DNA from: Histomonas meleagridis
Lineage: Eukaryota; Parabasalia; Tritrichomonadida; Dientamoebidae
Direction: 5' to 3'
NCBI GenBank assembly: GCA_020186115.1
Contig: WSYJ01000186.1
Coordinates: 1,099,501 to 1,163,500, forward strand
DNA length: 64,000 bases
In this document: positions 1,121 to 64,000 of the stretch, one piece after another
Position numbering within the stretch: position 1 is the first letter of the stretch
Layout: every line of letters starts with the position of its first letter
Translations under genes and position numbers: made by a program
The notes under the pieces: model-generated
What the model was told of the DNA's origin: nothing
Seen by the model: the letters and a program-made list of their open reading frames with translations, nothing else
The model's database searches: none

Positions 1121-2326
1121 ATGAATTTTAATTGGGAACAAATGATTCAAACACTCGAAGAAATAATTTTTGGGCTGAATTATGATAATATGGAATTATC
1201 TGTACAGAGTTCTATGAATTTATTTAATCGAAATTTTTGTTATTCATTTAATATTATTATTTGTCGTTTTGTATATAGAGCATTTGTTACCCAAATGAAA
1301 GAGCCTGGGCTTTATTTTGAATATTTAAAATTAATTGAAGTCAATGAGAATCAAATTTGCCCTTACACAGATCCAATTTTAAATATATTCAAAGAATATC
1401 TTCGTGGAATGAAAACTCAAGAATCAAATTATTTTTTAGTAAAAATGATTGAAAAAGGAATTATTCCTTCAAGTTATGCTAAAAATAATTTATATTTTGC
1501 AAATTATCTTCCAAAAGAAAATGTATATAATTTAATAGAATTTAATCAATTTTATGAATATTTTGATTCAAACTTTGAAGAACTTTCGAAAGATGATTGG
1601 AAACTTCATAAAGAACTAATTAATGAAGGAGTTAATCCATTAGAAATCACAAAAATTATACGGAATGATGATTTAGAACAATTAAAAGAAATATTATCAA
1701 AAAGATATTATAAAATTAATCAAAAAATTGAGCCTTCAATATATGAAAAATGTACTTTTGTTAATAATGATAATGTATCAATAATTGATTATTGTGCATA
1801 TTTTTGTGCAATTCAATGTTTTAAATATTTGTTGCCAAAACTTAATGGGCTGAAAGATACAGGAAAATATGCTATTGCTGGAGGAAACTTAGAAATTGTT
1901 AAATTATGTGAACAAAAAAATTTATCTTTTGAAAATAAATTCGAAATTTCAATTCAATATCATCGAAATGATATTTTTAAATATTTTTATGAAAAAGAAA
2001 TTATTGATAAAAGAAATAATAAGAAAAAATCACAAAACATTATTCAGAATTTAGGAATTAATTGTATTAAATATGATAATTACGAGATATATTTCTATTT
2101 AGTACAAAATGGAATGGAAATTAATGAACAGTTTATTAGAACATTTATAAAAGTTGGAAATATTTTCCCAATTCTTAATTTCAATAAAAAATTAAACATA
2201 AATTTGCTTTTAATAAAAGCAGCTAATTCTGGAAACATAGAAATTCTTCAATATCTCCAAAAGAAAGGTAAAATTGATTATAATTTTAAAGTTTTCGAAT
2301 ATTTTTTAGTGTTTGTTTTAAAGTAA
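1121..2326 (+). CDS. DUF3447/ankyrin head protein
   Basis: Member of the large trichomonad DUF3447-ankyrin family; molecular role unknown, probably protein-protein interaction. The ATG at 1121 is used; the frame extends three bases upstream only as TTG. A TCACTTTTG initiator-like motif lies about 30 nt upstream. Order: a helical N-terminal region (about 1-160), a conserved ELSKDDWKLHKELINEGVNP motif, the EPSIYEKC.F motif, DUF3447-type ankyrin IIDYCAYFCAIQCFKYLLP, then KYAIAGGNLEIVKLCEQ, YHRNDIFKYFYE and a final repeat SGNIEILQYLQKKGKID. The frame stops at 2326, immediately before a run of further ankyrin modules in other frames. It is closely related to the heads at 14014-15243 and 43509-44780 but more diverged. 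The protein may be longer if the downstream modules are joined to it. Confidence 0.8.
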   Translation: MNFNWEQMIQTLEEIIFGLNYDNMELSVQSSMNLFNRNFCYSFNIIICRFVYRAFVTQMKEPGLYFEYLKLIEVNENQICPYTDPILNIFKEYLRGMKTQESNYFLVKMIEKGIIPSSYAKNNLYFANYLPKENVYNLIEFNQFYEYFDSNFEELSKDDWKLHKELINEGVNPLEITKIIRNDDLEQLKEILSKRYYKINQKIEPSIYEKCTFVNNDNVSIIDYCAYFCAIQCFKYLLPKLNGLKDTGKYAIAGGNLEIVKLCEQKNLSFENKFEISIQYHRNDIFKYFYEKEIIDKRNNKKKSQNIIQNLGINCIKYDNYEIYFYLVQNGMEINEQFIRTFIKVGNIFPILNFNKKLNINLLLIKAANSGNIEILQYLQKKGKIDYNFKVFEYFLVFVLK

Positions 2327-3359
2327 AAATGGAGTATAATTAAATTATTTAATACAGCACTTATGAAAGCATGTAAAAATGGTCATGTCTTATTTGTGAG
2401 TTTAGTTTCTAAAGAAAAAGAAATTAATTTATATGAAAAAAATATTTTTTTATTGTTATCAATTTTAATATCAATTTTTTAGAGATAATTTTTAATGATT
2501 GGTGTTAGTTCATATAATTTGATACAGCAATACATATAGCAATTCAAAATGGAAATACTGAAATTATTAAATTTTTTGCTACTCTCAAAGGATTTGATTT
2601 AAATTTCAAATCTATTAATAATATATATTTGATGATTTTTTAAAACTTTATATGGAATTTATCTATGTTTTTTAATACACCTCTTTTATGTGCCACAGAC
2701 TTTGGCTATACTGAAATTGTTGGAATCATATTAAAGTGTAAGCAAACGAATGTAAATGAAAAAAATATTTATTTTTTATTTTTAGTCTTTATCTTATTTA
2801 ATTCGTGTTACAAAATGTTGTTTGGAGTTTATATAAATTTCTCAATACTGCATTAATGGAAGCATCAATATTAGGTTTTAATGAAATTGTAAAATTACTG
2901 ATAAGACACAAGGCAATTGATATAAATGTAAAAAATATTTACACACCTTAATCGATGGTTAGTTAGAAAGTTCCAAGATTCTAACATCTGTTTGGGGTTA
3001 TTTTCCATATATTCAAACAGCAATAATGATTGCAAAATATTATAGACATACTGAAATTGTTAAATTATTGGAATCAGGAATGATAAATAAAACTAGACGA
3101 TGCAATTTGAAATTTGCACACCAAGAATACACGAAATTTTGAAAATGGATTTAAAATAATTACCTTAATAAAGATATTTATTTCTATTGTTTGATTTTTA
3201 TTTTGGTAATTTAATATTTAAAATAATGAATGGAAATTGTTTAAATTAAATGAAACAACATTTATGATAGCAATAAAAAATGACAAAACAGAAATAGTTA
3301 AATTACTATTAACTCATGAAAAAATTAATATTAATGCAAAAGATATTTATTTCATTTGA
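2294..3359 (+). repeat. Ankyrin module array A (six modules, frame-breaking spacers)
   Basis: Downstream of the 1121-2326 head, six ankyrin-like modules are visible. Their conserved TAL threonine codons start at 2354, 2524, 2677, 2847, 3017 and 3255. Three of the five intervals are exactly 170 bp. Each module reads open, for example TALMKACKNGHVLF, TPLLCATDFGYTEIVGIIL, TALMEASILGFNEIVKLLI and TTFMIAIKNDKTEIVKLLL. The AT-rich spacers between them contain stops and shift frame. The fifth module ends with an extended tail and stop at about 3140, so it may be the natural C-terminus, with the sixth left over. Whether the modules are spliced exons or decayed copies cannot be decided from sequence. 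Confidence 0.7.
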
Positions 3360-6490: not shown

Positions 6491-9400
6491 TTTTTTTTCA
6501 AATATTCGAAAAAGTACTTCATTATGCTACTAGTCATAATTTATTTGATATTGTTAAGTTACTTCTGCAACATAAAAATATTGATATAGATTTTAAAAAT
6601 ATAAAATAATTTTATTTAAATTTCGTTTTGATAATTTAAAATTTGAGAATAATATTTGGAAATTATATAATTTGTTTGATACAGCTTATGATTGCATCTG
6701 AAAATAATAAAATTGAAATTGTTAAATTACTTCTTCAGCAAAAAGGAATTGATATTAATGCTAAAAATTTTTATTTGTTTCATTTGATATTTATTATAAT
6801 AACTTAAAGTTAAAAAATAATATTTGGAAATTACCCATAATATTTGATACTGCTTTTATGCTAGCATCTAAATATAATGAAATTGAAATTGTTAAATTAC
6901 TTCTTGAACAAAAAAGAATTGATATTAATGATAAAAATTTTTATTTGTTTTCTTTAATATTTCTTTTTAATATTTAATATTTTTAATTAACGTTTGGAAA
7001 TTACTTACAATATATGATACAGCACTTATGATTGCATTTATAAATGAGAGAACAAATATCATTAAATTACTTCTTCAGCAAAAAGGAATTGATATAAATT
7101 GTACGAATCACGTTAATGATGTTTTATTAAAGTTTGTTTCAAAAATATCATATTTTAAAATGATATTTGAAACACCATTAATACTTGCTGCAAAAATGGG
7201 AAACAAGGATATTGTAAAATTCCTTCTTGATCAAGAAGGAATTGATATAGATGCTAAAGATGTTTCTTTAATTAATTTAGAATTTATATTTATTATGTGA
7301 AAATTCCAAATAATATTTGGAATTTATTATCAATATTTAACTCTGCACTTGTTTATGCTTCAGCTTATGATGATATTGTTAAAATGTTAATTCATCATAA
7401 AGAAACTCATTCTAATTTCTGTAACATTTAATCTAAAATTTTGGAGATGATGATAAAATTTTGAATGATATTTATCAAGATAGTATGATAAGTTCTGTTG
7501 AATTTCTTGCAAGAAAAGCAGAAAATTATTTTGACACTGAAAATATCTTATTTCAATTTATAAAGTTTATTTAAATTATATTACACAGTATTCAGGAATT
7601 CTATAAGTAATGAATTACTTACAAACATTATAAGCTTTCTTGGTGATAAAGAAATTGATTTTGATGAATCATTTGATGTATATTCCAATTTTTTATTTCA
7701 TGTTTTTATTTGGTGATTTATATGAACCATTAATCCAAAATAGTTTTAAAGAAATGGTTGTTTCGATTCTTGAACAAGCTGATATAATATCACACAATGA
7801 TATGTGTTCTTTTTTTTTCAACGTTTTTGGAAATTTGATATTTTTGATTTTTATTTGATATTTTTCAATAGTATTTAAATTCTCTTCGAATAAGATATCA
7901 GCCAATAATATTAATGTTATATTTACATATATTCTTGAAGAAATAGTGAATATTCATCATAGTGTTATCGATATTTTTTTCATTTTAAAGTAACATATGG
8001 AATTTATTATAATTAATTGATGTATTATATTTTGAAAGACTTAAAAAAGAGTTAATTGAATGTGCTAAAATATATCTTGAAAAAATGTTTCCTAATGATA
8101 ATATTGATGAAATTAATTTCTTATACAAAATGTTTATTAATTTTTATTATTTCAAAATATTATATAATGTTCTATATATTTTTTTGTTTTGGCATTTCTT
8201 AAGGCATGTAAAAAAGGAAGCATTGCAATTGTTGAATATATTCTTGGGATAAAAAATTTCAGTATAAATGCAAGTAATATTTAATAATACAATTATATGA
8301 TCCTTTAATTTTAATGAAAACTTTATCTAATATTTGGAATTTATTTAAAATATTTAGAACAGCACTTATGAGCGCTTCAAAAAAGAACAATTTTATTATT
8401 GTAAAGTTACTTCTTGATCAAGAAGGAATTGACATAAATGCAACAGATGTAAAATCGCTCTATATATAGTCGATTATATTGATTTTATGTTTAAATAATG
8501 AATTTGGACTTAAATATAATTATTTTGTACTGCACTTATGTATGCATCTGAAAGAAATCATATTGAAACTGTAAAATTACTTCTTGAAAAAGAAGAAATA
8601 GAAATAAATATAAAAAATTTTTATTAATATCATCCAAAGTTTATTAAAATTAATTGCTATTTTTATCAAATATTTCAAATTTATTCTAATTAATCAAGAA
8701 TATCATCACAAAAGAATTTATGTTAGGACATAATGAAATCGGAAAATTGCTACTTCAACAGGAAGATCTTGATAATTTTAAGAATGTTTAATGATATTAT
8801 TTGATATTCTTATCAAAGATTTTATATATATCAATAATATTTGGAATTTACTCAAATTATTCGATACAGCTCTAATCTTTGCTATAAAATATCATAGAAT
8901 TGAAGTTATTAAATTGCTTCTTATTCAAGAAAAAATTGATATAAATTCAAAAAATGTTTTATGTTTAAATTTTCAATTTATTTTAGTGTTTTGATGTTTG
9001 AATAATATTTTTGGAATTTAAGTAAATTATTAGAAACAGCACTTACAATTGCAACACAACATAATCGTGTTGACATTGTTGAATTACTTCTTGAACAAAA
9101 AGGAATTGAACTAAATGCACAAAATGTATTTATTTTATTGTTTTAAAAATTAAACATAATATTTGGTATATCATCAATATATTTAAAACAGCTCTCATTA
9201 TTGCATCTACCAAAGGTTTCGTAGATATTGTTAAAGTGCTTCTAAAATTTGATCAAATTGATATCAATTTAAAAGATAATATCGATTTTATTCATTTAAT
9301 ATTTATAACTTATATTAGGTATGACCGCATTAATGTTTGCTATTTCTAATGATCATAATGAAATAATTGATATTCTTCTCGAACAGAAAGAAATTGATCT

Positions 9401-9553
9401 CTATGCAACAGATATTTTTATAATTTAATTAGAAATCTTTTTAATTATTTGAAAATTCAAAATAATATTTGAAATAAATTAAAATCATTTCGCTCTGCAC
9501 TTTATTTTGAAATATCAAATGGGAATTTAGATCTTGTAGAAAAATTTTTATAA
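6491..9553 (+). repeat. Headless ankyrin module array B (~20 modules)
   Basis: A long run of ankyrin-like modules without a DUF3447 head. Threonine codons (or equivalents) start at 6681, 6849, 7019, 7172, 7342, 8359, 8529, 8708, 8866, 9036, 9188, 9324 and 9494, with more diverged modules at about 6512 and between 7440 and 8270. Many intervals are 170 bp (6849-7019, 7172-7342, 8359-8529, 8866-9036, 9324-9494). Most modules are open, for example TAFMLASKYNEIEIVKLLLE, TPLILAAKMGNKDIVKFLLD and TALTIATQHNRVDIVELLLE. The module at 6681 is frameshifted. Two modules (7028-7300) are joined in one continuous frame. The last module ends VEKFL plus a stop (9551-9553), like a true C-terminus. Probably remnant or donor copies of an ankyrin gene that lost its head. 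Confidence 0.65.
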
Positions 9554-9646
9554 CTTAGCCTAAATTTATAATGATAATAAAATATTATATTTGATGATTG
9601 TATAGACTTTGATGAACAATTGAGATAACAAATTATAGATTTTTAT

Positions 9647-12297: not shown

Positions 12298-12719
12298 CCC
12301 CAAATTATAAAAAATGAATTACTTTTAAATAATAAGTATAAAAACTAATAGATAAAAAAAATTTTATTTTAACAAAAGAATAAAGTATAAAGAAAAAAAA
12401 ATTAAGAGTAGAGAAAAGAAAAAAAGAAAAAAAATTAATAAAAAAAGGGAATCAGATTGGCATATGTGGGATCTCACCGTTTGACTTGATATAGGAAAAA
12501 AATTGCGCCCGTGCATCGTGCTGGCCATTTATTCCCTATATCAAGTCAACTCACAGGCGAGAAAGGAAAAAAGTGCGTAAGTATACTTACATTAAATTCT
12601 AAATAGATGAAATGTCAAAAACATAAAAATACGAATTTTGAAACAAAAAAAATCATAATTTATAAAAAAATCATTTTTCTAAAAGGTATACATAATAATT
12701 TATGAGTGTGATATAACAA
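12298..12719. other. A-rich low-complexity spacer
   Basis: An A-rich, low-complexity segment (about 12300-12450) precedes a GC-richer stem-loop element (annotated separately) and a further AT-rich stretch up to the last ankyrin module of array C. No coding frame is supported. Confidence 0.4.
12481..12549. other. 15-bp perfect inverted repeat around GC-rich loop
   Basis: TTGACTTGATATAGG (12481-12495) is exactly complementary to 12535-12549. The 39-nt loop includes a GC-rich core (TTGCGCCCGTGCATCG) unlike the A-rich surroundings. Flanks TCTCACC and GGCGAGA may extend pairing. It could be a structured RNA or the ends of a small mobile element. I do not recognise a known RNA family. Confidence 0.4.
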
Positions 12720-14043
12720 TTAAATGATATTTCTTTTTTGTTCAAGTAATTTAACGATTTCTGTTCTACCATTCTCAGATGCTATAATAAGTGCTGTTTT
12801 ACATAATTTAAATAATTTCCAAATATTATTTCGAAATATAAAATTATTAAAATAAATTTTAAATAAAGCAAATAAATATCTTTGGCATTAATATCAATTC
12901 CTTTTTGTTCAAGAAGTAATTTAACTATTTCTGTATAACCATTTTGAGATGCTCTAATAAATGCTGTACCAAATATTTTAAATAATTTCCAAATATTAAT
13001 TTGAAATAATAAATTATTAAAATAAATATTAAATAAAACAAATAAATATCTTTAGCATTAATATCAATTCCTTTTTGTTCAAGAAGTAATTTAACTATTT
13101 CTGTATAACCTTTTGAAGATGCATACATAAGTGCTGTTTCAAATAATTTAAATAATTTCCAAATATTATTTTTAAATTCTAAATTATTAAAACAAATATC
13201 AAATGAAACAAATAAATATCTTTAGCATTAACATCAATTCCTTTTTGTTCAAGAAGTAATTTAACTATTTCTGTATAACCTTTTGAAGATGCATACATAA
13301 GTGATGTTTCAAATAATTTAAATAATTTCCAAATATTATTTTGATATATAAAATTATTAAAATAAATATTAAATAAAACAAATAAATATCTTTAGCATTA
13401 ATATCAATTCCTTTTTGCTCAAGAAGTAATTTAACAATTTCTGTTCTACCATTCTCAGATGCTCTAATAAATGCTGTACCAAATATTTTAAATAATTTCC
13501 AAATATTATTTTGAAATAGAAAATAAAATAAATATTTTTAGCATTAATATCAATTCCTTTTTGTTCAAGAAGTAATTTAACAATTTCTGTATAACCATTT
13601 TGAGATGCTCTAATAAATGCTGTACCAAATATTTTAAATAATTTTCAAATATTATTTTGAAATAATAAATTATTAAAATAAATATTAAATAAAACAAATA
13701 AATATCTTTAGCATTAATATCAATTCCTTTTTGTTCAAGAAGTAATTTAACTATTTCTGTATAACCTTTTGAAGATGCATACATAAGTGCTGTTTCAAAT
13801 AATTTAAATAATTTCCAAATATTATTTTGATATATAAAATTATTAAAAGAATCATTAATATAATAAAAAAAATATTTCGAACATTGATTTTAATTTTTTT
13901 CTGTTTAAGAAGATATTTAACAACTTCAATGTGTCCATTTTTAGAAGCTATTATAAATGCTGTATTAAAAAATTTAAATATTTACCAAATGTTATTATGA
14001 TATATCATATTATTCAAACAAATTTCAAAAATATTTTAGAAAC
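12720..14043 (-). repeat. Ankyrin module array C (eight modules, 170-bp period)
   Basis: Follows the 14014-15243 head on the minus strand. The ACAGC cores (GCTGT on +) lie at 13959, 13789, 13619, 13473, 13303, 13133, 12963 and 12793. All intervals are 170 bp except one of 146 and the 154-156-type offset is not seen otherwise. The distance from the head's last conserved D codon to the first module's T codon is exactly 80 nt. Modules read like TALMYASSKGYTEIVKLLLE, then QKGIDINAKD. The final module reads TALIIASENGRTEIVKLLEQ, then KRNII and stop (12720-12722), which looks like a true end. Spacers contain frame shifts and stops, and in the first spacer the otherwise conserved W-K codons read TGG TAA. 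Confidence 0.75.
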
Positions 14044-15243
14044 ATCCTTCATATTAACATCAATATTTTTATTTTTAATAATGTATTCAATAAGTTCTAC
14101 ATTACCTGATCTTGCAAATGATATAAACACATTATTTAGCAATTTTATATTATCATCAAGAAAACATTTCATAATGAATAAATTTCCTATAAATGAAAAC
14201 TCATTAATAAATGTTTCAAATTTCATTTTTTCAATTTCATACAAATATGAAAGAATTTCATACGAATTATTTAAAATACATTTTTTATAAAACATTTTCA
14301 AATCGATAGTTTTAATAATAATATTTTCATAAAGATATTTAAAGATATCATTTCGATGAAATTCAATTGCTATTTCATATGATCCATAAAATGATGAATG
14401 ATTTTGTTCACACAAATGTATAATTTCAAGATTTCCACCTGCAACTGCATATTTACCTGTGTTTTCTACACTTGCATTATTCATAAGTAAATATTTAAAA
14501 CATTTAACTGATCCAAAAAATGCTGCATAATCGATTAATTTAACATTTTCTTGATTAATAAATGAACATCTTTCATAAATTGATGGCTCAATATATTGAT
14601 TAAAATCAAAATTATCTTGTGATGATATTTCTTGAAGTTTTTCGATTTCATCATTTCGAATTATTTTTGCAATTTCATTTGGATTAATTCCTTCTTTAAT
14701 TAATTGCTTATGAAGTTCCCAATCATTTTTTTCAATATTATCACTAAAAATTAAATTTTTCGAATTATATTTTCTCAGATTTAAATTTTTTACATCATAA
14801 TAATAATCTGTTTTTGTCATTAAATGCAGAAAATATAAAGAGCCCCTTTTGATTAATAAGTTATTATTAATTAAATTATATTCAGACAGCTTTTCTAAAA
14901 GATAATCTGCTTCTTGAGTTTGGGTGAAAAGAAGAAAATTTGTGAAAATGTTTATTATGTGAAATTTACAAAATTGTTCATATTTTCTTGATAATGCTTC
15001 TAAAAAATTAAAGTAAACATCAAATTCATTCAACAGTGAAACAAACGCTGAATACACTAATTGACATGAAATAGAAAAAACTGAATATGGATAATTTTGC
15101 CCAAACATACTAAAAATTGATTCAACTGATTCTTTAACATTATTACAATTCAATTTCAAAACAATTTCTTCAAGTGACTTTAAGTTTAATATTTCATTTA
15201 CTATTGCTTCTGTAGAACTTTTGCTCAATCTTACTGGTTTCAT
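14014..15243 (-). CDS. DUF3447/ankyrin head protein
   Basis: Close paralogue of the gene at 43509. Function unknown; ankyrin repeats suggest a binding scaffold. N-terminal helical region (about 1-170), ELHKQLIKEGINPNEIAKII motif, EPSIYERCSF, DUF3447-type ankyrin (LIDYAAFFGSVKCFKYLLMN), GKYAVAGGNLEIIHLCEQ, EFHRNDIFKYLYE and a last repeat SGNVELIEYIIKNKNIDVNM ending in a stop a few codons into the first spacer. ATG at 15243, with an exact TAACGATA motif (15287-15294, + strand) about 45 nt upstream. The full product may include the modules of array C (12720-14043) if the 80-nt spacers are removed from RNA. Confidence 0.85.
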   Translation of the reverse strand: MKPVRLSKSSTEAIVNEILNLKSLEEIVLKLNCNNVKESVESIFSMFGQNYPYSVFSISCQLVYSAFVSLLNEFDVYFNFLEALSRKYEQFCKFHIINIFTNFLLFTQTQEADYLLEKLSEYNLINNNLLIKRGSLYFLHLMTKTDYYYDVKNLNLRKYNSKNLIFSDNIEKNDWELHKQLIKEGINPNEIAKIIRNDEIEKLQEISSQDNFDFNQYIEPSIYERCSFINQENVKLIDYAAFFGSVKCFKYLLMNNASVENTGKYAVAGGNLEIIHLCEQNHSSFYGSYEIAIEFHRNDIFKYLYENIIIKTIDLKMFYKKCILNNSYEILSYLYEIEKMKFETFINEFSFIGNLFIMKCFLDDNIKLLNNVFISFARSGNVELIEYIIKNKNIDVNMKDVSKIFLKFV

Positions 15244-16010
15244 ATTGTCACTTTTGAAATAAAAAGAATTTGGATGAAATAACCACTAACGATACCATGA
15301 TAAAAACCGTAGTCCAAATATCAATTCAAAAATCATTTATATAAATATGTGTGAAGGATGTTATTCAAATAACAGTTATTTTGTTTGGTTTGAACTATTT
15401 GGATGAAAGTATTTGTTGGCATGAAATCCATGATACTTATCATTGAGTTCATGTTCAAATTCTTGCACCATGAGTTCGGGTTGTCCCATTTAAATGGTCA
15501 TTTCACCTCATATTGGTGTTATTGAAATTTTAATTCAATAACTGCAGTTATTTCAAAGGAAAGTGATGTGATATGAACAATGACAAAATAAAAAAAATGT
15601 AAAACTTAGGAACAAACTTGTCAGCGAGTCGAAGTTAAAAACCTTAATACTTCCAATTCAAAAAGAAGTGACAACTTTAGAATTCTTAATACGATATAGT
15701 TTGGTATATAATTGTAAATTTTTCTTTTCTCATTTTGAATTATCCTCACATTTTATTAAACCTGAGTCATACGCCAAGAGTTAATTACATTTTTCGAGGA
15801 TTATGGATTTGGAGGATGCCAAATGATATCAATGCCCAAATAAAGTGGTTCTTTTTTAACTTCAGAAAATTGAATCTACGATTGACTTTTTAAATCAAAA
15901 GCGATTGACAAACACCAAAAGTACGAAGATTTCTGGGGAAACCGATCTTTACTTTTCAAAGCATTGTTGCCGTTTCGTGTATTCAAAAATTGAGGCGTTT
16001 GGCATACAAA
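15244..16010. other. Divergent intergenic region with TAACGATA site
   Basis: 767 bp between the divergent ankyrin gene and the epsin-like gene. It contains TAACGATA at 15287-15294, the motif known as a Myb-binding element (MRE-1) in Trichomonas vaginalis, and AAAACCGTAG at about 15303. CAAATAACAGTTATTTTG (15366-15383) is a palindromic stretch. No gene is supported. Confidence 0.45.
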
Positions 16011-17594
16011 ATGCAAGTGTGGAAAAAAGCCAAAGAAGCTGCACGCAAAACACAATATGTTTTCAAAGGAAAAGACCCTGTTCAAAAGATTGTTTTAGAA
16101 GCTTCACGCGATGATGATGACCATGTGACAGAAAGCGAATTTCAAACAATTGCTCATCTTTGTTATGTTCAAGCCGCTCTCCCAAGTATCAATAAAACAC
16201 TCATAAAGAGGTTCGATAGAATCGCTGATGATGTGGTGTCATGTCAAAAATCTCTTCAAATTCTTGATTATTGTGTCAAGTATGGGCCCGACACTATGCG
16301 TTCAAATGCTATGCAATTCATCAGTAGCTTGAATGTTGTGTCTCAATCATACACTACAGCACCTTCTGATCATAGGAATTATCGAGCAGAAGATGATTGC
16401 AGAAACTTAGCTGGAAATTTGATGCAAATATTAAAATCGGATGAAATGTATGAACAAATTAGAAATTCATCAGTTGCTCAAATTAGGCAAGTTAAACAAT
16501 TTTATGTTGAACCATTTGAAATGAATGGTATTATGATCGATACGACCGTAGTACCCATGGACATGTCCATTGGAGGTATCAATCCAATATCACCAAACGT
16601 CTATACTCCAACTGAGAATTCCCGAAAGAAATCCACATCATCATCTGACGACGAAGAACTTGACTTCGATCCGCGTGCTAAAAACAAACAGTCGGACAGA
16701 AGGGCATCTGATCCATTTGCAAGTCCACAACAAAGCCAATCAAATCAAAACACATTTGATCCATTTGCTCAGCAGCAACAACAACCACAAAGACAACAGC
16801 AACAAGGAGGATTCGACATCTTCAATCAACAGCCACAACAACAGAATCAAACTCATCGAAGTTCATTTGATCAATATCCACAACAACAAAGGCAACAACA
16901 GCAAGGAGGGTTCGATATGTTTGGCCAGCCACAACAACAGCAGAGGCCAGTTCAACAACAGCAACAAGGATTTGATGTATTTGGTCAACCTCAACAACAA
17001 CAACGGCCAATGCAACAACAACAACAAGGATTTGACGTCTTCGGACAACCACAACAACAAAGGCCAGTTCAACAGCAACAACAAGGATTTGATGTATTTG
17101 GTCAACATCAACAACAACAACAAAGACCAATGCAACAGCAGCAACAACAAGGATTTGACGTCTTTGGCCAACCACAACAACAACAGAGACCAGTACAACA
17201 ACAGCAACAACAAGGATTTGATGTATTTGGTCAACCACAACAACAAGGATTTGGACAACAGTCACAAAACAACTTCCAACAGCAGCAACAAAGACCTGTA
17301 CAACAACAGCAAAACTTTGATGACTTATTATTTGGGGCACCCCAACCCCAACCGCAACAACTTCCGCAGCAGCAATACAACAATTCGTTCTTGGATCTCC
17401 ATGATAGTGGTTCAGCTCCTCCTCCACCACAGCAAAAGCCACAACAAAGCCAAGGCGGTGGAATGCTTGATGAATTTGGCGATTTGGTGAACCTTGATCT
17501 AAGAGAAAAGCCGCGAACATTACATGGAATGCCACAACAAGTTGTAAGAGGAGGTGGCCAATCCATTGGTGGCTCTTACGGAAATGGATTCTAA
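16011..17594 (+). CDS. Epsin/AP180-like ENTH-ANTH adaptor with Q-rich tail
   Basis: Likely endocytic clathrin adaptor. The N-terminal ~140 residues form an ENTH/ANTH-type helical domain (MQVWKKAKEAARKTQYVF, LCYVQAALPSINKTLIKRFD, QKSLQILDYCVKYGPDTMR). The tail carries DPF motifs (SDPFAS, FDPFAQ), which bind the AP-2 ear in known adaptors, and about seven FD-V/M/I-FGQ repeats separated by glutamine runs. A clathrin-box-like LVNLD (about residue 491) lies near the C-terminus. The start is the ATG at 16011; the frame extends upstream only through TTG. The CAA/CAG repeats keep several other frames open, and those are shadows. Repeat expansion by slippage is likely. Confidence 0.85.
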   Translation: MQVWKKAKEAARKTQYVFKGKDPVQKIVLEASRDDDDHVTESEFQTIAHLCYVQAALPSINKTLIKRFDRIADDVVSCQKSLQILDYCVKYGPDTMRSNAMQFISSLNVVSQSYTTAPSDHRNYRAEDDCRNLAGNLMQILKSDEMYEQIRNSSVAQIRQVKQFYVEPFEMNGIMIDTTVVPMDMSIGGINPISPNVYTPTENSRKKSTSSSDDEELDFDPRAKNKQSDRRASDPFASPQQSQSNQNTFDPFAQQQQQPQRQQQQGGFDIFNQQPQQQNQTHRSSFDQYPQQQRQQQQGGFDMFGQPQQQQRPVQQQQQGFDVFGQPQQQQRPMQQQQQGFDVFGQPQQQRPVQQQQQGFDVFGQHQQQQQRPMQQQQQQGFDVFGQPQQQQRPVQQQQQQGFDVFGQPQQQGFGQQSQNNFQQQQQRPVQQQQNFDDLLFGAPQPQPQQLPQQQYNNSFLDLHDSGSAPPPPQQKPQQSQGGGMLDEFGDLVNLDLREKPRTLHGMPQQVVRGGGQSIGGSYGNGF

Positions 17595-19410: not shown

Positions 19411-20414
19411 TTATATTTTCTTTATTTTTGTATCAAGTAATTTCGCGATTTTATTATTAGCATTTTTATATGCGAGTTTAATTGCAGTGTTTCCAATATA
19501 AACAAAGAAATATAAAATAACCGGATACAAATCTTAAATAAAATAACCGGATACAAATCTTAAATAAAAGAATTCAATGAACCAAAAAATGCGCAATAAT
19601 CAATTAATGTAACGATTTCTTTGTTTATAAATGAATATCGTTCATATAGTGATGGCTCAATAGTTTGATTAAAATCAAAACTTGTTTGTGATGCTATTTC
19701 TTGAAGTCTTTCAATTTCATCATTTCGAAGAATTTATGCAATAGGTGTTGAATTGATTCCTTCCATAATGAATTCTTTATGAAGCTTCCAATCGTCTTTT
19801 GAAAGTTCTTCAATGTTTGATATAATTTCTTGTGAAAATGGATATGGTGGCCTTAAATAATTTATTTTAAAACTATTGATAATTGTTAAAACATTCTTTT
19901 TTGATAATTTATGTGCAAAATATATACGTTGGAAAGAATGGAATTTTTTGACAAGATTTCGATCAAAATCATTAATTATTCCGTGTTCAATCATCTTTTC
20001 AAGTAGAAAATTAGATTCATTATTTTTTATTGAAAGAAGATATTGTCGGAAAACATCAAAAATTTTTGGTATTTTATCATCAATTTCTTTCTCTTTTATT
20101 TCAATTTCTTTTAAATATTGAAAACATAAATTTTCATCTAGAGCTTTTATTGTGAAAGCAGAAAATGTTATTTGAGAAACAATAAGATTAAATGAATAAG
20201 GTATAGTTTTATCAAAATGTTTCATGGTTGCTTCAACTGATAAGCTACAATTATTTTGGCTAGTGTTAAATATAATTTTGGTTAAATCTTTTAATTTTTG
20301 CATTAATTCCATCCTGCAGGATGGAAATGTATCACTTTTGGTATGAGTTTTTCGGTTTTTTGTGGTACTCCCAAAATAATTCATCAGTTTACAGTGCACC
20401 GATTGATACTTCAT
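19411..20414 (-). pseudogene. DUF3447/ankyrin pseudogene
   Basis: The head is open from the ATG at 20414 (MKYQSVHCKLMNYFGSTTKN, then the conserved ELSKDDWKLHKEFIMEGIN), but a TAA at 19734 replaces a codon in the conserved EIAKIIRND motif. Homology resumes in the same frame (ILRNDEIERLQEIASQTSFD, EPSLYERYSF), then breaks by frameshift near the LIDYCAFFGS motif (about 19600). The central part is deleted. A final ankyrin repeat (GNTAIKLAYKNANNKIAKLL) ends at a stop at 19411. A 26-bp direct duplication containing ATAACCGGATACAAATC lies at about 19514-19565, at the deletion junction. Nonfunctional as a full-length gene; the N-terminal 226 residues could still be expressed. Confidence 0.8.
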
Positions 20415-22456: not shown

Positions 22457-23913
22457 AAAATTTAATATTTCTTTTTGATTTTTGGTGTTATTTATTATTA
22501 TATAAAACTGCATTAATTTTTGCATCTTGGAAAGGTTTTACTGACATAGTTAAAATACTTCTTGAACATGAAGGAATTGATGTAAATATTAAAGATAATT
22601 TTTTTGTCATTAACTTGATATGTGATTATAATGTTTGGAATTAATATTAATTTATTAGCTCTGCACTAATATATGCATCTAAAGGAGGTTATATAGAAAT
22701 CGTTAAATTACTTCTTGAACAAGAAGGAATTGCTGTAAATGCTAAAGATATTTATTCATTATATTTAATATTTCTTTTAATAATTTTTTGTTTCAAAATA
22801 ATATTTAAAAATTATTTAAATTATTTTATACAGCACTTATGGAAGCATCTAAAAATGGTTATACAGAAATAGTTAAATTACTTCTTGAACAAGAAGGAAT
22901 TGATATTAATATCACATGTGTTTAATATGTTTTTTATCCTATTTGTTTTCATAATTTGATGTTTCTAAATATTATTTGGATTTTATATAATTTATTCAGT
23001 AATGCATTTCTTTTAGCCTTGAAAAATAATCATAGTGATATAGCAAAAATTTTCATGAACCAAAAAATCAATTTAAATCATAAAACTATTTATTTTTATT
23101 ATTTATTTTTTATATAAAATAATTAAAAATTCAAACTAATATTTGGAAATTATTGAAATTATTTAGTACAGCCGTTAGTATTGCATCTCAAAGAGGTCTA
23201 ACTGAAATTGCTGAATTAATTCTTGAGTATGGAGGAATTAATGTTAACTCAAAAACCATTTATTTATTTATAATAGAGTTAATTTCAATAATATTTTATT
23301 TTAAATGAATATTTGGAAATAATTTATATTATTTCACACTCCATTAATGAAAGCATCTAAAAAAGGACATGTAGAAATTGTGAAATTACTTTTTAAACAA
23401 AAGAAAATTAATGTAAATCTTAAAGATGTTTTTATGTTTATTTCCGAATTTGATTTGTTAATTTGATATTTATAGAAAATATTTGGAAATTATTCGAATT
23501 AAATAGAACAGCTCTTATGTTTGCAGCTCAATTTGTACATACAGATATTGTTAAATTACTTCTTGAACATAAAGGAATAGATATTAACAAAGAAGATTTT
23601 TATTTATTGTGTTTAATGTTTGTATTAATCATTTTATGTTTCAAAATAGTATCTGGAAATTATTTTCTATATTTAAAACGGCACTTATTTGGGCTTCCTT
23701 AGCTGGCAATACAGAAGCAGTCAAATTACTTATTGAACAAAAACGTATTAAAATTGATGTTGTAGATGCTTGTTTTTTTTATTTACATTATATTTAGAAA
23801 ATTTAGAATTCCAAAGAAATATTCGGTATTCCCTAAAATTATTTAACGATGCTTTGATTTATGCAACATCACAAGGTTTTACAGATATTGTCAATTTACT
23901 TAAAACTAAGTAG
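22457..23913 (+). repeat. Ankyrin module array D (nine modules, diverged but open)
   Basis: Threonine or equivalent codons start at 22507, 22660, 22830, 23001, 23168, 23338, 23508, 23678 and 23848 (intervals 153, 170, 171, 167, 170, 170, 170, 170). All nine modules read without a stop although they differ considerably, for example TALIFASWKGFTDIVKILLE, NAFLLALKNNHSDIAKIFM, TPLMKASKKGHVEIVKLLF and TALIWASLAGNTEAVKLLI. The last reads DALIYATSQGFTDIVNLLKT, then K and stop (23911-23913). The spacers carry stops and shift frame, and most retain ATTTGGAAA about 25-30 nt before the next module. Confidence 0.75.
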
Positions 23914-24343
23914 AAAAAAAATATTTTAATAAAAAATAATATTATTAATTTTTTAACATTAATTGGAATGAAATATCATTTATATCCGTAATATTTCTCT
24001 TAAAATTATTGTGAATCTTTGTTTTTAAAATAAAAAATTCAAATGTTAAAACCCCACTTACACAAGACGCTGTCAACCAAATACATTACAAATAATTTTA
24101 AAATTAAAAAGAAATCTATAATAGGGAAAGTTGGTTGACAGTGTCTTATTTATACACGAAATTTCATTTTAAAATCGAAATCTTTTCTATTTTTTCACAA
24201 TGATCGAAGTTTTTATACTCTACCATATTACTTATGACAATTTTTTCTATTGACAAGAGAATTTTCTTACTTATTAAATAATAATGTGTTTCATTTAAAA
24301 ACGAAATTAGAACAATAATTTTACAAACACCTTTGTATCTTGT
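23914..24343. other. Intergenic with 17-bp inverted repeat
   Basis: 430 bp between array D and the 3' end of the kinase gene. It holds an inverted repeat: 24064-24080 (AAGACGCTGTCAACCAA) pairs with 24131-24147, with one G-U type mismatch and a 50-nt AT-rich loop. It could be a small inverted-repeat element or a hairpin at a transcript end. No coding frame is supported. Confidence 0.45.
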
Positions 24344-30546: not shown

Positions 30547-30879
30547 TTGCAAGGGAAATTATCAAATGAACCCACAAACAAAGCAATTAATAATTCAACA
30601 GAAATCGAATTATTGTCTGAACTTGAGCAAATTATTTTTAATTTATCACAAGAAAATCTAGAATCTTCAATTGAACAAACCATGAATTTATTTGATATAA
30701 ATTTCCCGTTTACATATAATTTAATCTTAATTCATTTAATTTATTATGCTTATTGTTCAAGAATTTTTATTGATGATATTTATGTTAATTATTTAGAAAT
30801 AATTCTAGCCAAAGAAGCAGAAAACAAGAAGTATTTTCCAAATATTATAAATTTTTTTTGTGTCTATTTGAATATATAA
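30547..30879 (+). pseudogene. Truncated DUF3447/ankyrin head
   Basis: Only the N-terminal ~100 residues of a head are present (ELEQIIFNLSQENLESSIEQ, TMNLFDINFPFTYNLILIHL, YYAYCSRIFIDDIYVNYLEI), then a stop at 30877. The conserved DUF3447 part is missing, and homology resumes in the middle of an ankyrin module at about 30888. No ATG opens the homologous frame at its expected start: the nearby ATG at 30565 is in another frame, and the open frame begins with TTG. A head with a large internal deletion and a probable 5' frameshift. Confidence 0.75.
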
Positions 30880-31539
30880 AATAACAACTAAATTACTTAT
30901 TAAACAAGAAGGAATTGATATTAATGCTAAAGATGTTTATTTGTTTTATTTAATATTTATTTTAATAATTTAATATTTCTAAATGATATTTGGAAATTAT
31001 TTAAATTATTTAAAACAGCACTTATGAAAGCATCTGAAAATGGTCATACAGAAATAGTTAAATTACTTCTTGAACAAGAAGGAATTGATATTAATGCTAA
31101 AAATATTTATTTGTTTTATTTGGTATTTATATTATTAATTTGAAATTTTAAAATAATATTTAGAAATTATAAAAACTATTTCGAACAGCTCTTATTTGGG
31201 CATCTTGGAAAGGTCACATCGAAATCGTTAAATTACTTCTTGAACAAGAAGATATTGATGTTAATGTTAAAGATATTTGTTTATCCTATTTCGGATTTAT
31301 TTTAATAATTTGATATTTTAAAATAATATTTGGAAATTCAAAAAAATATTTGATACAGCAGTCAGAATTGCATTTGCTCAAAATAACATTAATATTGTAA
31401 TATTGCTTCTTGAAAAAGAAGGAATTGATGCCAATGAAAAAAATATTTAATTTGTTTTAGTAATTTTATGTTTTAAATTAGTTTTTGAAGATTAATCAAA
31501 ATATTTGAAGAGGAAAGGCAAATGAAAATTCAAAAGTAG
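30880..31539 (+). repeat. Ankyrin module array E (partial plus three modules)
   Basis: After the truncated head, a partial module (TTKLLIKQEGIDINAKD) is followed by modules whose T codons start at 31015, 31185 and 31355, exactly 170 bp apart: TALMKASENGHTEIVKLLLE, TALIWASWKGHIEIVKLLLE, TAVRIAFAQNNINIVILLLE. All are open. A last short segment, LIKIFEEERQMKIQK and stop (31537-31539), aligns with the usual module entry and could be a natural C-terminus. Confidence 0.7.
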
Positions 31540-41010: not shown

Positions 41011-41571
41011 TTAAAATTTTCGTTTATTTCGAATTATTTTTGCAATTTCAATAGGATTAACTCCTTCTTCAATTAGTTTCTTATGAAGCTCCCAATCATT
41101 CTTTGATAGTTCTTCATAATGTTCAAAAAAGTATTTTAGTATTGGATCATTTCGATAAAACCATAATGCGAAACGATTTTGGTTTTCTTCTTCTGTTTTA
41201 TAATGAACAAAATATTTTGATCTAATATTTTTTGTGATATTTTTATCAATTAAATTTTGTTCAATTAGTTTCTCAAGTAAATAATATGATTCTTGTGTGT
41301 TGATTTCAGTTATACGTTTGATAAAAATTGAAATTAGTTTATCGACACTTTGATTATTTTCTTCTTCTTTCGTTTGAAGTGTTTTTAAAAAATTTAAGTA
41401 AATATCAAATTCATGTTTTAGTGATGAAAATGCATTATAAGCCAGGCTACCTATAATAATATTAAATGTATTTGGAAAATTTAAATCGAATAATTCCAAT
41501 ACTTTTTTACAGTACCGGACACGAAAATCTGTCCATCGGCCGGAAATTTCTGGCCACGAAATGATCGGCAT
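41011..41571 (-). pseudogene. Truncated DUF3447/ankyrin head with replaced 5' end
   Basis: Covers the N-terminal helical half of a head (KKVLELFDLNFPNTFNIIIG, YLLEKLIEQNLIDKNITKNI, ELSKNDWELHKKLIEEGVNP, then IAKIIRNKRKF and stop). The DUF3447/ankyrin half is absent, and instead the Maverick debris follows. The first ~20 codons (MPIISWPEISGRWTDFRVRY) derive from the palindromic GC-rich repeat at 41520-41690 rather than from an ankyrin gene, so the true 5' end was lost. The frame is open and could be expressed, but looks like a gene fragment. Confidence 0.7.
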
Positions 41572-43508: not shown

Positions 43509-44780
43509 ATGCCTAAAACTAACAAACGTAATACAACAAAATCTTCAAGTTCTCCCAAGAGAAATAGTAAAGTTAATGAAACTCAAACTAGTTATATAAA
43601 AATACTTATATCTCTTGAACAAGTAATATTTAATTTAACTAATGAAAATATTGAATTATCAATTCGACGAACAATGGAGCTATTTAATTCAAAATATCCA
43701 TATTCATTTAATTCTGTTATTTGTACTTTGATTTATTATGCATTTTCATCTCAAAAATGCGAAATAAATACATATCTTAAATACTTAGAAATGTTGCAAG
43801 CAGAAGAAGAAATGAATAAAGAATATCCAAAAGTCATTAAGATTTTTACCAACTTCATATCTGAAATAGTATCAAAGGAAAAATATTATATAATAGAGAG
43901 AATGATTGAACTCAAGTTAATTGATGTAAATATCCTCAAAAATATTAATTCAAATTATTTCATGCATCGTAAAACTAAAACTGAAAACAATGTTTTAGAC
44001 AATCAAAATAAAAGTAGGAGAAATCGGAAAAGAATTGAACCAATAGAAAAACCTTTAGTAGAAAATTATGAAGAACTTTCAAATAATGATTTTGAACTTC
44101 ATGAAAAATATATTAAAGAAGGACATAATCCGAATGAAATTGCGAAAATAATTCGAAATGATGAAATAGAAAAACTTAAAGAAATATCATCACAAACAAA
44201 CTTCGATTTTAATCAAACAATTGAGCCATCACTTTATGAAAGATGTTCATTTATTAATAAAGAAAATGTTACATTAATTGATTATGCAGCATTTTTTGGA
44301 TCAATTAAATGTTTTAAATATTTACTTATGAATAGTGCAAATGTTAAAAACATAGGTAAATACGCAGTTGCAGGTGGAAATGAAGAAATTATTCATTTAT
44401 GTGAACAAAATCATTCATCATTTGAAGGTGCATATGAAGCAGCAATTATGTTTCATCGAAATGATATCTTTAAATATCTTTATGAAAATAAAACTGAAGA
44501 TATTGATAATTTAAAAGAATTAGGTGAAAAATGCGTTTCATATTTTAATTATGAAATTTTTACATATTTAGAAAAAGAAGGAATGAAAATTAATGAAAAT
44601 ATCATTAAAGAAGCAGCAAAAATTGGAAATATTTTTCTTGTAAAATATTTCCTTAAAAATAATCAACTTTTAGGAAATATTTTAGTTTTTGCTTCATTTT
44701 CAGGAAATATTGAACTTGTTACATACATTTTAAAGCAAAAAGAAATTGACATTAATGCTAAAGATATTTATTTGTTTTAA
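43509..44780 (+). CDS. DUF3447/ankyrin head protein (intact)
   Basis: Best preserved family member, 423 residues. Basic/serine-rich start (MPKTNKRNTTKSSSSPKRN), helical region at 30-180, ELSNNDFELHEKYIKEGHNP motif, EPSLYERCSF, DUF3447-type ankyrin (about 255-330: TLIDYAAFFGSIKCFKYLLM, KYAVAGGNEEIIHLCEQNHS, MFHRNDIFKYLYE), further repeats and SGNIELVTYILKQKEIDINA followed by KDIYLF and stop. The stop falls 15 nt into the first 80-nt spacer; nine near-identical modules of array F follow. ATG at 43509. Role unknown; ankyrin repeats suggest protein binding. If spacers are spliced, the product would gain about 300 residues. Confidence 0.88.
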   Translation: MPKTNKRNTTKSSSSPKRNSKVNETQTSYIKILISLEQVIFNLTNENIELSIRRTMELFNSKYPYSFNSVICTLIYYAFSSQKCEINTYLKYLEMLQAEEEMNKEYPKVIKIFTNFISEIVSKEKYYIIERMIELKLIDVNILKNINSNYFMHRKTKTENNVLDNQNKSRRNRKRIEPIEKPLVENYEELSNNDFELHEKYIKEGHNPNEIAKIIRNDEIEKLKEISSQTNFDFNQTIEPSLYERCSFINKENVTLIDYAAFFGSIKCFKYLLMNSANVKNIGKYAVAGGNEEIIHLCEQNHSSFEGAYEAAIMFHRNDIFKYLYENKTEDIDNLKELGEKCVSYFNYEIFTYLEKEGMKINENIIKEAAKIGNIFLVKYFLKNNQLLGNILVFASFSGNIELVTYILKQKEIDINAKDIYLF

Positions 44781-46274
44781 TTGAAATTTATTTTAATATT
44801 TTTATATTTCAAAATAATATTTGGAAATTATTTCAAATATTTAATACAGCACTTAATGAAGCATCTTATTATGGTCATACAGAAATAGTCAAATTACTTC
44901 TTGAACAAAAAGGAATTGATATTAATGCTAAAGATATTTATTTGTTTTATTTAATATTTATTTTAATAATTTTATATTTCAATATAATATTTGGAAATTG
45001 TTTAAAATATTTAATACAGCACTTATATTAGCATCTGATAAAGGTCATACAAAAATAGTCAAATTACTTCTTGAACAAGAAAGAATTGATATTAATGCTA
45101 AAAATATTTATTTGTTTTAATTGAAATTTATTTTAATATTTTTATATTTCAATATAATATTTGGAAATTATTTCAAATATTTAATACAGCACTTATATTG
45201 GCATCTGATAAAGGTCATACAGAAATCGTTAAATTACTTCTTGAACAAGAAGGAATTGATATTAATGCTAAAAATATTTATTTGTTTTAATTGAAATTTA
45301 TTTTAATATTTTTATATTTCAATATAATATTTGGAAATTATTTAAAATATTTAATACAGCACTTATATTGGCATCTGATAAAGGTAATACAAAAATAGTC
45401 AAATTACTTCTTGAACAAAAAGAAATTGACATTAATGCTAAAGATATTTATTTGTTTTAATTGAAATTTATTTTAATATTTTTATATTTCAAAATAATAT
45501 TTGGAAATTATTTCAAATATTTAATACAGCACTTAATGAAGCATCTTATTATGGTCATACAGAAATAGTCAAATTACTTCTTGAACAAGAAAGAATTGAT
45601 ATTAATGCTAAAAATATTTATTTGTTTTAATTGAAATTTATTTTAATATTTTTATATTTCAATATAATATTTGGAAATTATTTAAAATATTTAATACAGC
45701 ACTTATATTGGCATCTGATAAAGGTCATACAGAAATCGTTAAATTACTTCTTGAACAAGAAGGAATTGATATTAATGCTAAAGATATTTATTTGTTTTAT
45801 TTAATATTTATTTAGATAAAATGATATTTCAATATAATATTTGGAAATTATTTAAAATATTTTGGACAGCACTTATATTGGCATCTGAAGGTGGTTATAC
45901 AAAAATAGTCAAATTACTTCTTGAACAAGAAGGAATTGATATTAATGCTAAAGATATTTATTTGTTTTATTTAATATTTATTTAGATAAAATGATATTTC
46001 AATATAATATTTGGAAATTATTCAAATTATTTAAAACAGCACTTGTTAGAGCATCTGAAGAAGGTTATATAGAAATAGTCAAATTACTTCTTGAACAAGA
46101 AGGAATTGATATTAATGCTAAAAATATTTATTTGTTTTATTTAATGTTTATTTTAATAATTTTATATTTCAAAACAATATTTGGAAATTACTTAAATTAT
46201 TTTATACAGCACTTGATTATGAATCCTCTAAAGGTCACAAAAAAGTCGTTGAACTTCTTCATGTGGTCGAATGA
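44766..46274 (+). repeat. Ankyrin module array F (nine modules, exact 170-bp period)
   Basis: The T codon of TAL starts at 44846, 45016, 45186, 45356, 45526, 45696, 45866, 46036 and 46206: eight intervals of exactly 170 bp. Each unit is a 30-codon module (for example TALILASDKGHTEIVKLLLE then QEGIDINAKD) plus an 80-nt spacer. The head's last NAKD is also exactly 80 nt from the first T codon. 170 is not a multiple of 3, so consecutive modules lie in different frames, and spacers often contain TAA just after KDIYLF. The last module, TALDYESSKGHKKVVELLHV then VE and stop (46272-46274), is distinct and looks like the genuine C-terminus. Confidence 0.85.
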
Positions 46275-63438: not shown

Positions 63439-64000
63439 GAAATTACTTAATGTGAATATATGAAATTACTTAATGTGAATATGTGAAATTACTTAATNNN
63501 NNNNNNNNNNNNNNNNNNNNNNNNNNNNNNNNNNNNNNNNNNNNNNNNNNNNNNNNNNNNNNNNNNNNNNNNNNNNNNNNNNNNNNNNNNACTTAATGTG
63601 AATATATGAAATTACTTAATGTGAATATATGAAATTACTTAATGTGAATATGTGAAATTACTTAATGTGAATATATGAAATTACTTAATGTGAATATATG
63701 AAATTACTTAATGTGAATATATGAAATTACTTAATGTGAATATATGAAATTACTTAATGTGAATATATGAAATTACTTAATGTGAATATGTGAAATTACT
63801 TAATGTGAATATATGAAATTACTTAATGTGAATATGTGAAATTACTTAATGTGAATATATGAAATTACTTAATGTGAATATATGAAATTACTTAATGTGA
63901 ATATATGAAATTACTTAATGTGAATATGTGAAATTACTTAATGTGAATATATGAAATTACTTAATGTGAATATATGAAATTACTTAATGTGAATATATGA
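63439..64000. repeat. 23-bp minisatellite (runs off window end)
   Basis: Tandem unit GAAATTACTTAATGTGAATATAT with a single common variant (TATGT for TATAT). About 2.5 units lie before the N gap (63498-63590) and about 18 after it to the window end. Variants are interspersed without an obvious higher-order pattern. It directly follows the importin gene. Confidence 0.95.
63498..63590. other. Assembly gap (93 N)
   Basis: A run of 93 N bases inside the 23-bp minisatellite, presumably an unresolved copy-number gap. The true array length is unknown. Confidence 0.99.

Follow-up and report, generated by a model that had tools for sequence, protein, structure and literature searches.

How can ankyrin modules that lie in different reading frames, with stop codons between them, belong to one protein? 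The question is raised by positions 43509-46274 of a 64,000-nt stretch (the window, as the whole of it is called here) of contig WSYJ01000186.1 of Histomonas meleagridis, a parabasalid of the Dientamoebidae and a parasite of poultry. An open reading frame (ORF), the head, is followed there by a tandem array of nine ankyrin modules, each preceded by a spacer of 80 nt. The explanation we prefer, with a probability of roughly 0.7, is a single split gene from which one intron-like stretch would be removed per ankyrin repeat; it draws on signs of selection in the DNA. In such a gene the head exon would be followed by eight ankyrin exons, and the stop codon would sit in a final exon. Because removal of the spacers brings modules in different DNA frames into one reading frame, the message left after their departure could be read as one ankyrin protein. 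Removal would presumably take place at the RNA level, by splicing.

Layout of the array

Tandem Repeats Finder describes 44736-46214 as 8.7 copies of a 170-nt period with 91% matches. An earlier note on this DNA had reported nine modules at exactly this spacing, the last NAKD motif of the head 80 nt before the first module, and a last module closing with its own stop codon. All of this is borne out: the intervening gaps are uniformly 80 nt, the NAKD of the head's final repeat ends at 44765, and the array closes with a TGA (positions in Table 1). The further statement that the spacers carry stops applies to the frame of the upstream module, in seven of the nine spacers (the exceptions are those at 44936 and 46126), and does not apply to the frame of the downstream module, in which all nine are open. 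The stop codon of the head ORF, at 44778-44780, falls within spacer 1. When each module was extended by one codon on either side, eight of the nine scored above the cut-off of the PF00023 profile (E 1.7e-9 to 4.6e-7); the truncated ninth alone gave no Pfam match in this test.

Similar arrays in the genome

We searched the H. meleagridis assembly (43.28 Mb, 121 contigs). One 170-nt unit has at least 157 matches there, and 30 stretches fetched from such places make up, together with the window, the set of loci analysed. In this set the profile of the 30-residue module gave 409 matches with a score of at least 5, and between adjacent matches there are 315 gaps of 40-120 nt, 228 of them 80 nt and 39 of them 63 nt long. 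All 294 matches of a spacer model in these loci, which were selected for having arrays, adjoin a module. A 41-nt word spanning the boundary of module and spacer, with up to three mismatches allowed, matched the whole genome 1309 + 1331 = 2640 times and its reversed control 0 + 0 times; 2640 is thus a lower bound on the junctions genome-wide. The spacing is neither chance nor local.

Six further ankyrin arrays with spacers were seen in the window, at 2204-3344 (+), 6511-7261 (+), 8189-9583 (+), 22507-23937 (+), 30845-31444 (+) and about 12708-14133 (-). Several of them are strongly diverged, with many 80-nt gaps retained. At four of the fetched loci (L031, L032, L053 and L060) 153-nt units, with a 63-nt spacer, alternate with 170-nt units or replace them, and some of these units are open throughout. 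The 63-nt spacers arise through differing deletions and many further lengths are present, so we claim no length rule from the 17-nt step (46, 63, 80 nt).

Selection on modules and spacers

A first set of 270 units was collected with a nucleotide profile, frame not being used; 204 of them are exactly 170 nt long. Stop counts were compared with a neutral simulation, in which an equal amount of random change was applied to the consensus (the spacer consensus is open in the downstream frame). Only two of the 204 modules contain a stop codon, while the neutral mean is about 76 (range 58-94). The spacers of the same units have a downstream-frame stop in 60 cases, close to the neutral expectation of about 67 (range 49-91), and the difference between modules and spacers is highly significant (Fisher p 7e-18). 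Among all 270 units, four modules have a stop; downstream-frame stops occur in 63 of 216 spacers with a length of 2 mod 3, in 25 of 49 with 0 mod 3 and in 2 of 5 with 1 mod 3.

Other measures separate the two parts of the unit as well. Pairwise divergence is 0.134 in the spacer (8000 pairs), 0.107 at 4-fold sites and 0.072 at second codon positions, six hypervariable codons being excluded from the last figure. At the nucleotide level, 19 of 34 module indels and 18 of 84 spacer indels are multiples of three; in these counts copies were taken separately without deduplication, and the boundary in the 169-position model, which may be misplaced by one position, coincides with three of the 19 multiples of three in modules and with two of the other module indels. 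Of the other 66 spacer indels, 43 are deletions of 2 mod 3 length, mostly the 17-nt difference between the 80-nt and 63-nt classes. The sequence directly supports that modules look translated, with far fewer stops than drift would leave, that most of each spacer shows no such avoidance, and that coding resumes in its last one or two codons.

In 38 arrays of at least three modules, the final module found was followed in frame up to a stop codon. By our reading, 23 of them have a stop of their own within or just after an ankyrin-like end; the other 15 run into spacer-like sequence, appear to be frame-shifted, have no clean module or have no stop. The last module of the window array and that of its paralogue at locus L041 (the codon before TAL included) differ at 10 of 72 nt, distributed 1/2/7 over the codon positions, and the sequences beyond the stop differ at 33 of 90 nt. 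Loci L046, L047 and L050 share another ending; among them, 2-4 of the 120 nt that precede the stop differ, and 5-10 of the 90 nt that follow it. L040 and L043, with endings at different places, were left out of the comparison.

These observations bear on the most serious competing explanation, that the head ORF is the whole protein and the downstream modules are untranslated leftovers, homogenised by unequal crossing-over and gene conversion and perhaps serving as a reservoir. Silent arrays of this kind would suit a head ORF that ends in spacer 1, the related proteins elsewhere that stop at or soon after the same place, units that are alike within arrays (91% matches in the window) and a ratio of nonsynonymous to synonymous substitution rates (dN/dS) that is not low in modules. 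We nevertheless regard them as unlikely: modules avoid stops while the spacers of those very units drift as expected, in the last module of the window array and of L041 the stop is retained and most changes fall at third positions, and the hypervariable, mostly polar codon before TAL (see below) looks selected for its protein sequence.

Spacers might instead be translated, through a -1 or +2 frameshift near ATTTATTTGTTTTA in each repeat, so that the spacer becomes a 26-residue insert in the downstream frame. The nine open spacers of the window array and the 153-nt units that are open straight through agree with this, and yet it is very improbable. Downstream-frame stops are as frequent as under neutral drift, the ratio of nonsynonymous to synonymous differences (pN/pS) of 80-nt spacers is 1.05-1.21 over the three frames, and a W codon that would lie within the insert is a stop in many spacers (see below). 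Nine frameshifts in succession would, moreover, be likely to lose most of the product. A coding spacer was rejected on the stop counts and pN/pS.

Edges of the coding sequence

For counts at the spacer edges we used the 272 of 315 spacers with well-scored neighbours. Over the codons that follow NAKD, stops number 0, 5, 5, 0 and 11; counted backwards from TAL they number 0, 1, 6, 12, 2, 10, 3 and 37, the last value belonging to the W codon eight codons before TAL. The codon at -1 encodes E, K, N, R, D, Q, W or Y, mostly polar or aromatic residues, in 247 of the 272 spacers, and its entropy in the 80-nt class is 3.48, compared with 3.61 and 3.67 for the fastest module codons. At -2 the codon is F, again in 247 of 272. 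The ankyrin repeat has the motif GxTPL, and the codon directly before TAL is its x. Since that codon varies so strongly, encodes mostly polar residues and is never a stop in the 272 spacers, coding resumes within the last codons of the spacer.

Most likely, then, the first codon behind NAKD and the two codons ahead of TAL remain coding, which gives a 33-residue repeat. Stop counts and codon variability at the edges thus point to removal of about 71 nt from each spacer of the 80-nt class and, by the same reasoning, of about 54 nt from the 63-nt class. Of the two removal lengths that the earlier note had offered, 71 nt fits the codon-wise stop counts; 53 nt, which keeps the W motif, does not, as 37 of 272 spacers have a stop in place of the W codon. 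A search for relatives of the head found 78 proteins; of the 12 from 'ena' contigs that were inspected, five (P0001, P0003, P0005, P0006 and P0014) end right after that one post-NAKD codon, at either a stop or a contig end.

A ribosome that hops over a spacer remaining in the mRNA would leave the same evidence in the DNA as removal, and splice signals would be unnecessary. Translational bypass would, however, have to succeed nine times in a row over about 70 nt, and to our knowledge it is efficient only in a phage gene and in yeast mitochondria, not on cytosolic ribosomes. We consider it as improbable as frameshifting.

Search for splice signals

A further possibility is ordinary spliceosomal GT-AG introns of the trichomonad type. 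The pattern GTATGT-N30-60-CTAACACA has 25 matches genome-wide (control, 5), giving candidates for canonical introns, many of which look by eye as if they contained an internal hairpin. Two nearly identical U2 small nuclear RNA genes are present, at C40:1173955-1174137 (-) and C120:2033147-2033329 (-); both contain GTAGTA, which we take to be the branch-site reader of U2. A U6 candidate at C36:377228-377335 (+) scores 43.7 bits, just under the 44-bit cut-off; a search for U1 gave no match, nor did its control. In the window, one regular expression for canonical introns found none.

The spacers themselves do not look like such introns. A frame-restoring GT-AG pair is possible in 36 of the 228 80-nt spacers, compared with 47.6 in the shuffled control, and on this count GT-AG ends were rejected. 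GTATGT occurs in 2 and CTAAC in 1 of the 315 spacers. In the window array, a stretch that began with the conserved GT at spacer position 9 and reached the G of ACAG would measure 76 nt; its removal would break the frame and take away the coding codon before TAL. Ordinary GT-AG introns are therefore scarcely credible here. AT-AC ends are possible in 223 and GT-AC ends in 197 of the 228 spacers (raw counts, without a shuffled control). Both pairs were rejected, since their AC is probably that of an ACA (T) codon and the coding codon before TAL would again be lost.

What the 48 most diverged 80-nt spacers keep is a start near RTTTRTTT, TTTGG at positions 55-59 and ATTT before the last codon. RTTTRTTT appears to resemble the GTATGTTT that opens many of the canonical intron candidates of this genome. 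If the spacers are spliced, their ends are probably not GT-AG; degenerate AT-rich ends are the most likely ones, with a start near RTTTRTTT and a 3' box near ATTTGGAAWTTATTTAAATTATTT. Removal of the spacers would thus probably depart from the usual intron signals. In a test of box offsets, offset 3 was seen in 29 spacers (23 distinct) and offsets 1, 2, 4 and 5 in 10; we think that most of this excess goes back to a single deletion between two box copies, and it was not used as support.

We give no more credence to an assembly or base-calling artefact, conceivable for an assembly that, in the accessible text of its description (PMC8529796), combines Nanopore reads with refinement by Illumina: the 80- or 63-nt length recurs across many loci, also in spacers that match the consensus at no more than 53% of positions, and the end point is shared by related proteins of other sources.

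Observations that weigh against spacer removal

Several results do not favour a split gene. Besides the shortage of frame-restoring GT-AG pairs, no other terminal pair is conserved above 65% (the best, TT..AT, in 65% of 46 diverged spacers). A shared RNA fold did not exceed that of shuffled columns, in a test that is weak on diverged AT-rich sequence. The consensus fold was empty for 200 and for 62 diverged 80-nt spacers, as it was for their column-shuffled controls; 60 close spacers gave -1.74 (shuffled, -1.53), and z-scores for the folding of single sequences ranged from +1.9 to -2.4 in the 12 spacers tried. One exact, strict pattern for a spacer-free version of the arrays had 0 matches.

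Module dN/dS is 1.60 in the closest pairs, 1.10 in the next bin and 0.64-0.81 in distant pairs. Contact sites of ankyrin repeats vary fast in the protein, and in our opinion values above 1 in close pairs arise because several protein sites vary fast. In the protein-profile set, which is biased to open frames, 12 of 315 modules still contain a stop. The last exons of L046, L047 and L050 show no excess of third-position changes (2/1/1, 2/0/0 and 2/1/1), and L053 and L056, misaligned at the start, differ at 18 of 132 nt (5/5/8) and then at 50 of 90. The open downstream frame of all nine spacers in the window array is what frameshifting would also predict. Finally, 53 of 61 contiguous repeats in the retrieved proteins, many of them from unrelated organisms, have a four-residue linker, which would imply removal of 68 nt instead of 71 nt.

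We still find one removed segment per repeat to be the best-supported interpretation: modules avoid stops, spacers drift, and many arrays end with a stop of their own. To this extent the suggestion of the earlier note, one fixed-length intron per repeat in an intron-poor lineage, is supported. Its fixed length is not, given the second class of 63 nt and the other lengths, and the spacers have no usable GT-AG, GTATGT or CTAAC.

Table 1. Parts of the candidate split gene (window positions)
Feature	Positions	Strand	Basis or remark
Head exon, 423-aa ORF to the last NAKD	43509..44765	+	ORF; Pfam Ank_2 and DUF3447; relatives elsewhere, e.g. P0001, 54% identity
Spacer 1, 80 nt	44766..44845	+	opening codon and final one or two codons probably coding
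Ankyrin module 1, 30 codons	44846..44935	+	PF00023 5.2e-9
Spacer 2, 80 nt	44936..45015	+	
Ankyrin module 2	45016..45105	+	PF00023 3.7e-8
Spacer 3, 80 nt	45106..45185	+	
Ankyrin module 3	45186..45275	+	PF00023 1.9e-9
Spacer 4, 80 nt	45276..45355	+	
Ankyrin module 4	45356..45445	+	PF00023 1.1e-7
Spacer 5, 80 nt	45446..45525	+	
Ankyrin module 5	45526..45615	+	PF00023 4.8e-8
Spacer 6, 80 nt	45616..45695	+	
Ankyrin module 6	45696..45785	+	PF00023 1.7e-9
Spacer 7, 80 nt	45786..45865	+	
Ankyrin module 7	45866..45955	+	PF00023 2.9e-8
Spacer 8, 80 nt	45956..46035	+	
Ankyrin module 8	46036..46125	+	PF00023 4.6e-7
Spacer 9, 80 nt	46126..46205	+	
Last module TALDYESSKGHKKVVELLHVVE and stop TGA at 46272-46274	46206..46274	+	comparison with paralogue L041

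Two window ORFs, 41011-41571 (-) and 19734-20414 (-), look by eye like the N-terminal part of the head alone and are perhaps fragments of head genes. Elsewhere in the window, the ORF at 15990-17594 (+) has a Q-rich tail of QQQQGFDVFGQPQQ-like repeats with a period of 63 nt, and a 23-nt tandem unit (17.8 copies, 97%) occupies 63591-64000, up to the window end.

Relatives and known systems

In two Tritrichomonas proteins, P0112 (T. musculus) and P0116 (T. foetus), a related head (33% identity, covering roughly half of the query) leads into ankyrin repeats with no spacer. This continuation of the head into contiguous repeats supports head and modules as parts of one protein. Another protein of T. 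foetus, P0037, stops shortly beyond an ankyrin repeat, and its tail resembles a translated spacer; spacer-like stretches may therefore exist in that species too. Two H. meleagridis proteins annotated as cask-interacting protein (caskin) are head-like and have inserts, of NPNPNPPPWRQG-type repeats in P0018 and of acidic stretches in P0022. A protein search with a natural multi-module ORF returned 33 matches; the seven inspected are contiguous ankyrin proteins, none of them of the spacer family. Longer spacer-free open frames with ankyrin matches occur in the H. meleagridis genome (ankyrin at large). A scan of viral contigs gave no match.

Among known systems, the type A and B introns of Trichomonas vaginalis (5' GTATGT-like, 3' ACTAACACACAG-like) resemble the spacers in being short introns of a parabasalid, and ankyrin genes are among the intron-bearing T. 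vaginalis genes in the accessible text of PMC12316389. The spacers differ from trichomonad introns in having no usable GT-AG, no GTATGT and no CTAAC branch site fused to the acceptor, and in occurring once per repeat. They differ in number as well: there are at least 2600 junctions per genome, whereas the accessible parts of the sources give 63 introns for T. vaginalis and 573 annotated ones for H. meleagridis. The nonconventional introns of euglenids and diplonemids, as far as the available parts of the literature describe them, have no conserved GT-AG borders; in euglenids they occur beside conventional introns, and their mode of removal is described there as unknown. The spacers share with them the lack of conserved GT-AG ends. 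However, euglenozoan introns pair their ends in a stable fold, according to the same partial sources, while no shared fold was found for the spacers in our weak test; the spacers, unlike those introns, are all homologous to one another and belong to a single kind of protein repeat. Because their ends are unlike those of trichomonad introns and the euglenozoan fold was not found, we place the spacers in neither class. Phage T4 gene 60 and the byps of yeast mitochondria are reportedly translational bypass elements; these are also untranslated stretches within genes, but they are not spliced, and we know of no case with one such element per repeat in a nuclear gene.

Implications for parabasalid genes

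Parabasalids are held up as intron-poor eukaryotes. AUGUSTUS expects ordinary splice sites, so genes with spacers would be cut at the first spacer. The accessible text of the H. meleagridis genome paper (PMC8529796) reports 43 Mb, 28% GC, 187 contigs and 573 introns, with at most one per gene, annotated by AUGUSTUS after training on the transcriptome. Among the literature matches listed, with most subscription journals out of reach, we found neither non-GT-AG introns of a parabasalid nor a parabasalid gene with one intron for each ankyrin repeat.

We propose tentatively, at a little less than even odds, that the Histomonas line of parabasalids has, beside its ordinary introns, another class with ends other than GT-AG. 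Each ankyrin repeat would have one of them, which makes at least 2600 per genome, and a variant spliceosome or other machinery would remove them. If this is true, the class would outnumber all annotated introns together several times over. The repeat unit would then be an exon with its own intron, and arrays would grow and shrink by exons. If the spacers are introns, the intron number of this lineage would be badly underestimated and a large ankyrin family would have been missed; introns without GT-AG ends would also form a class in a lineage other than Euglenozoa, and their thousands of natural variants could serve to map the signals.

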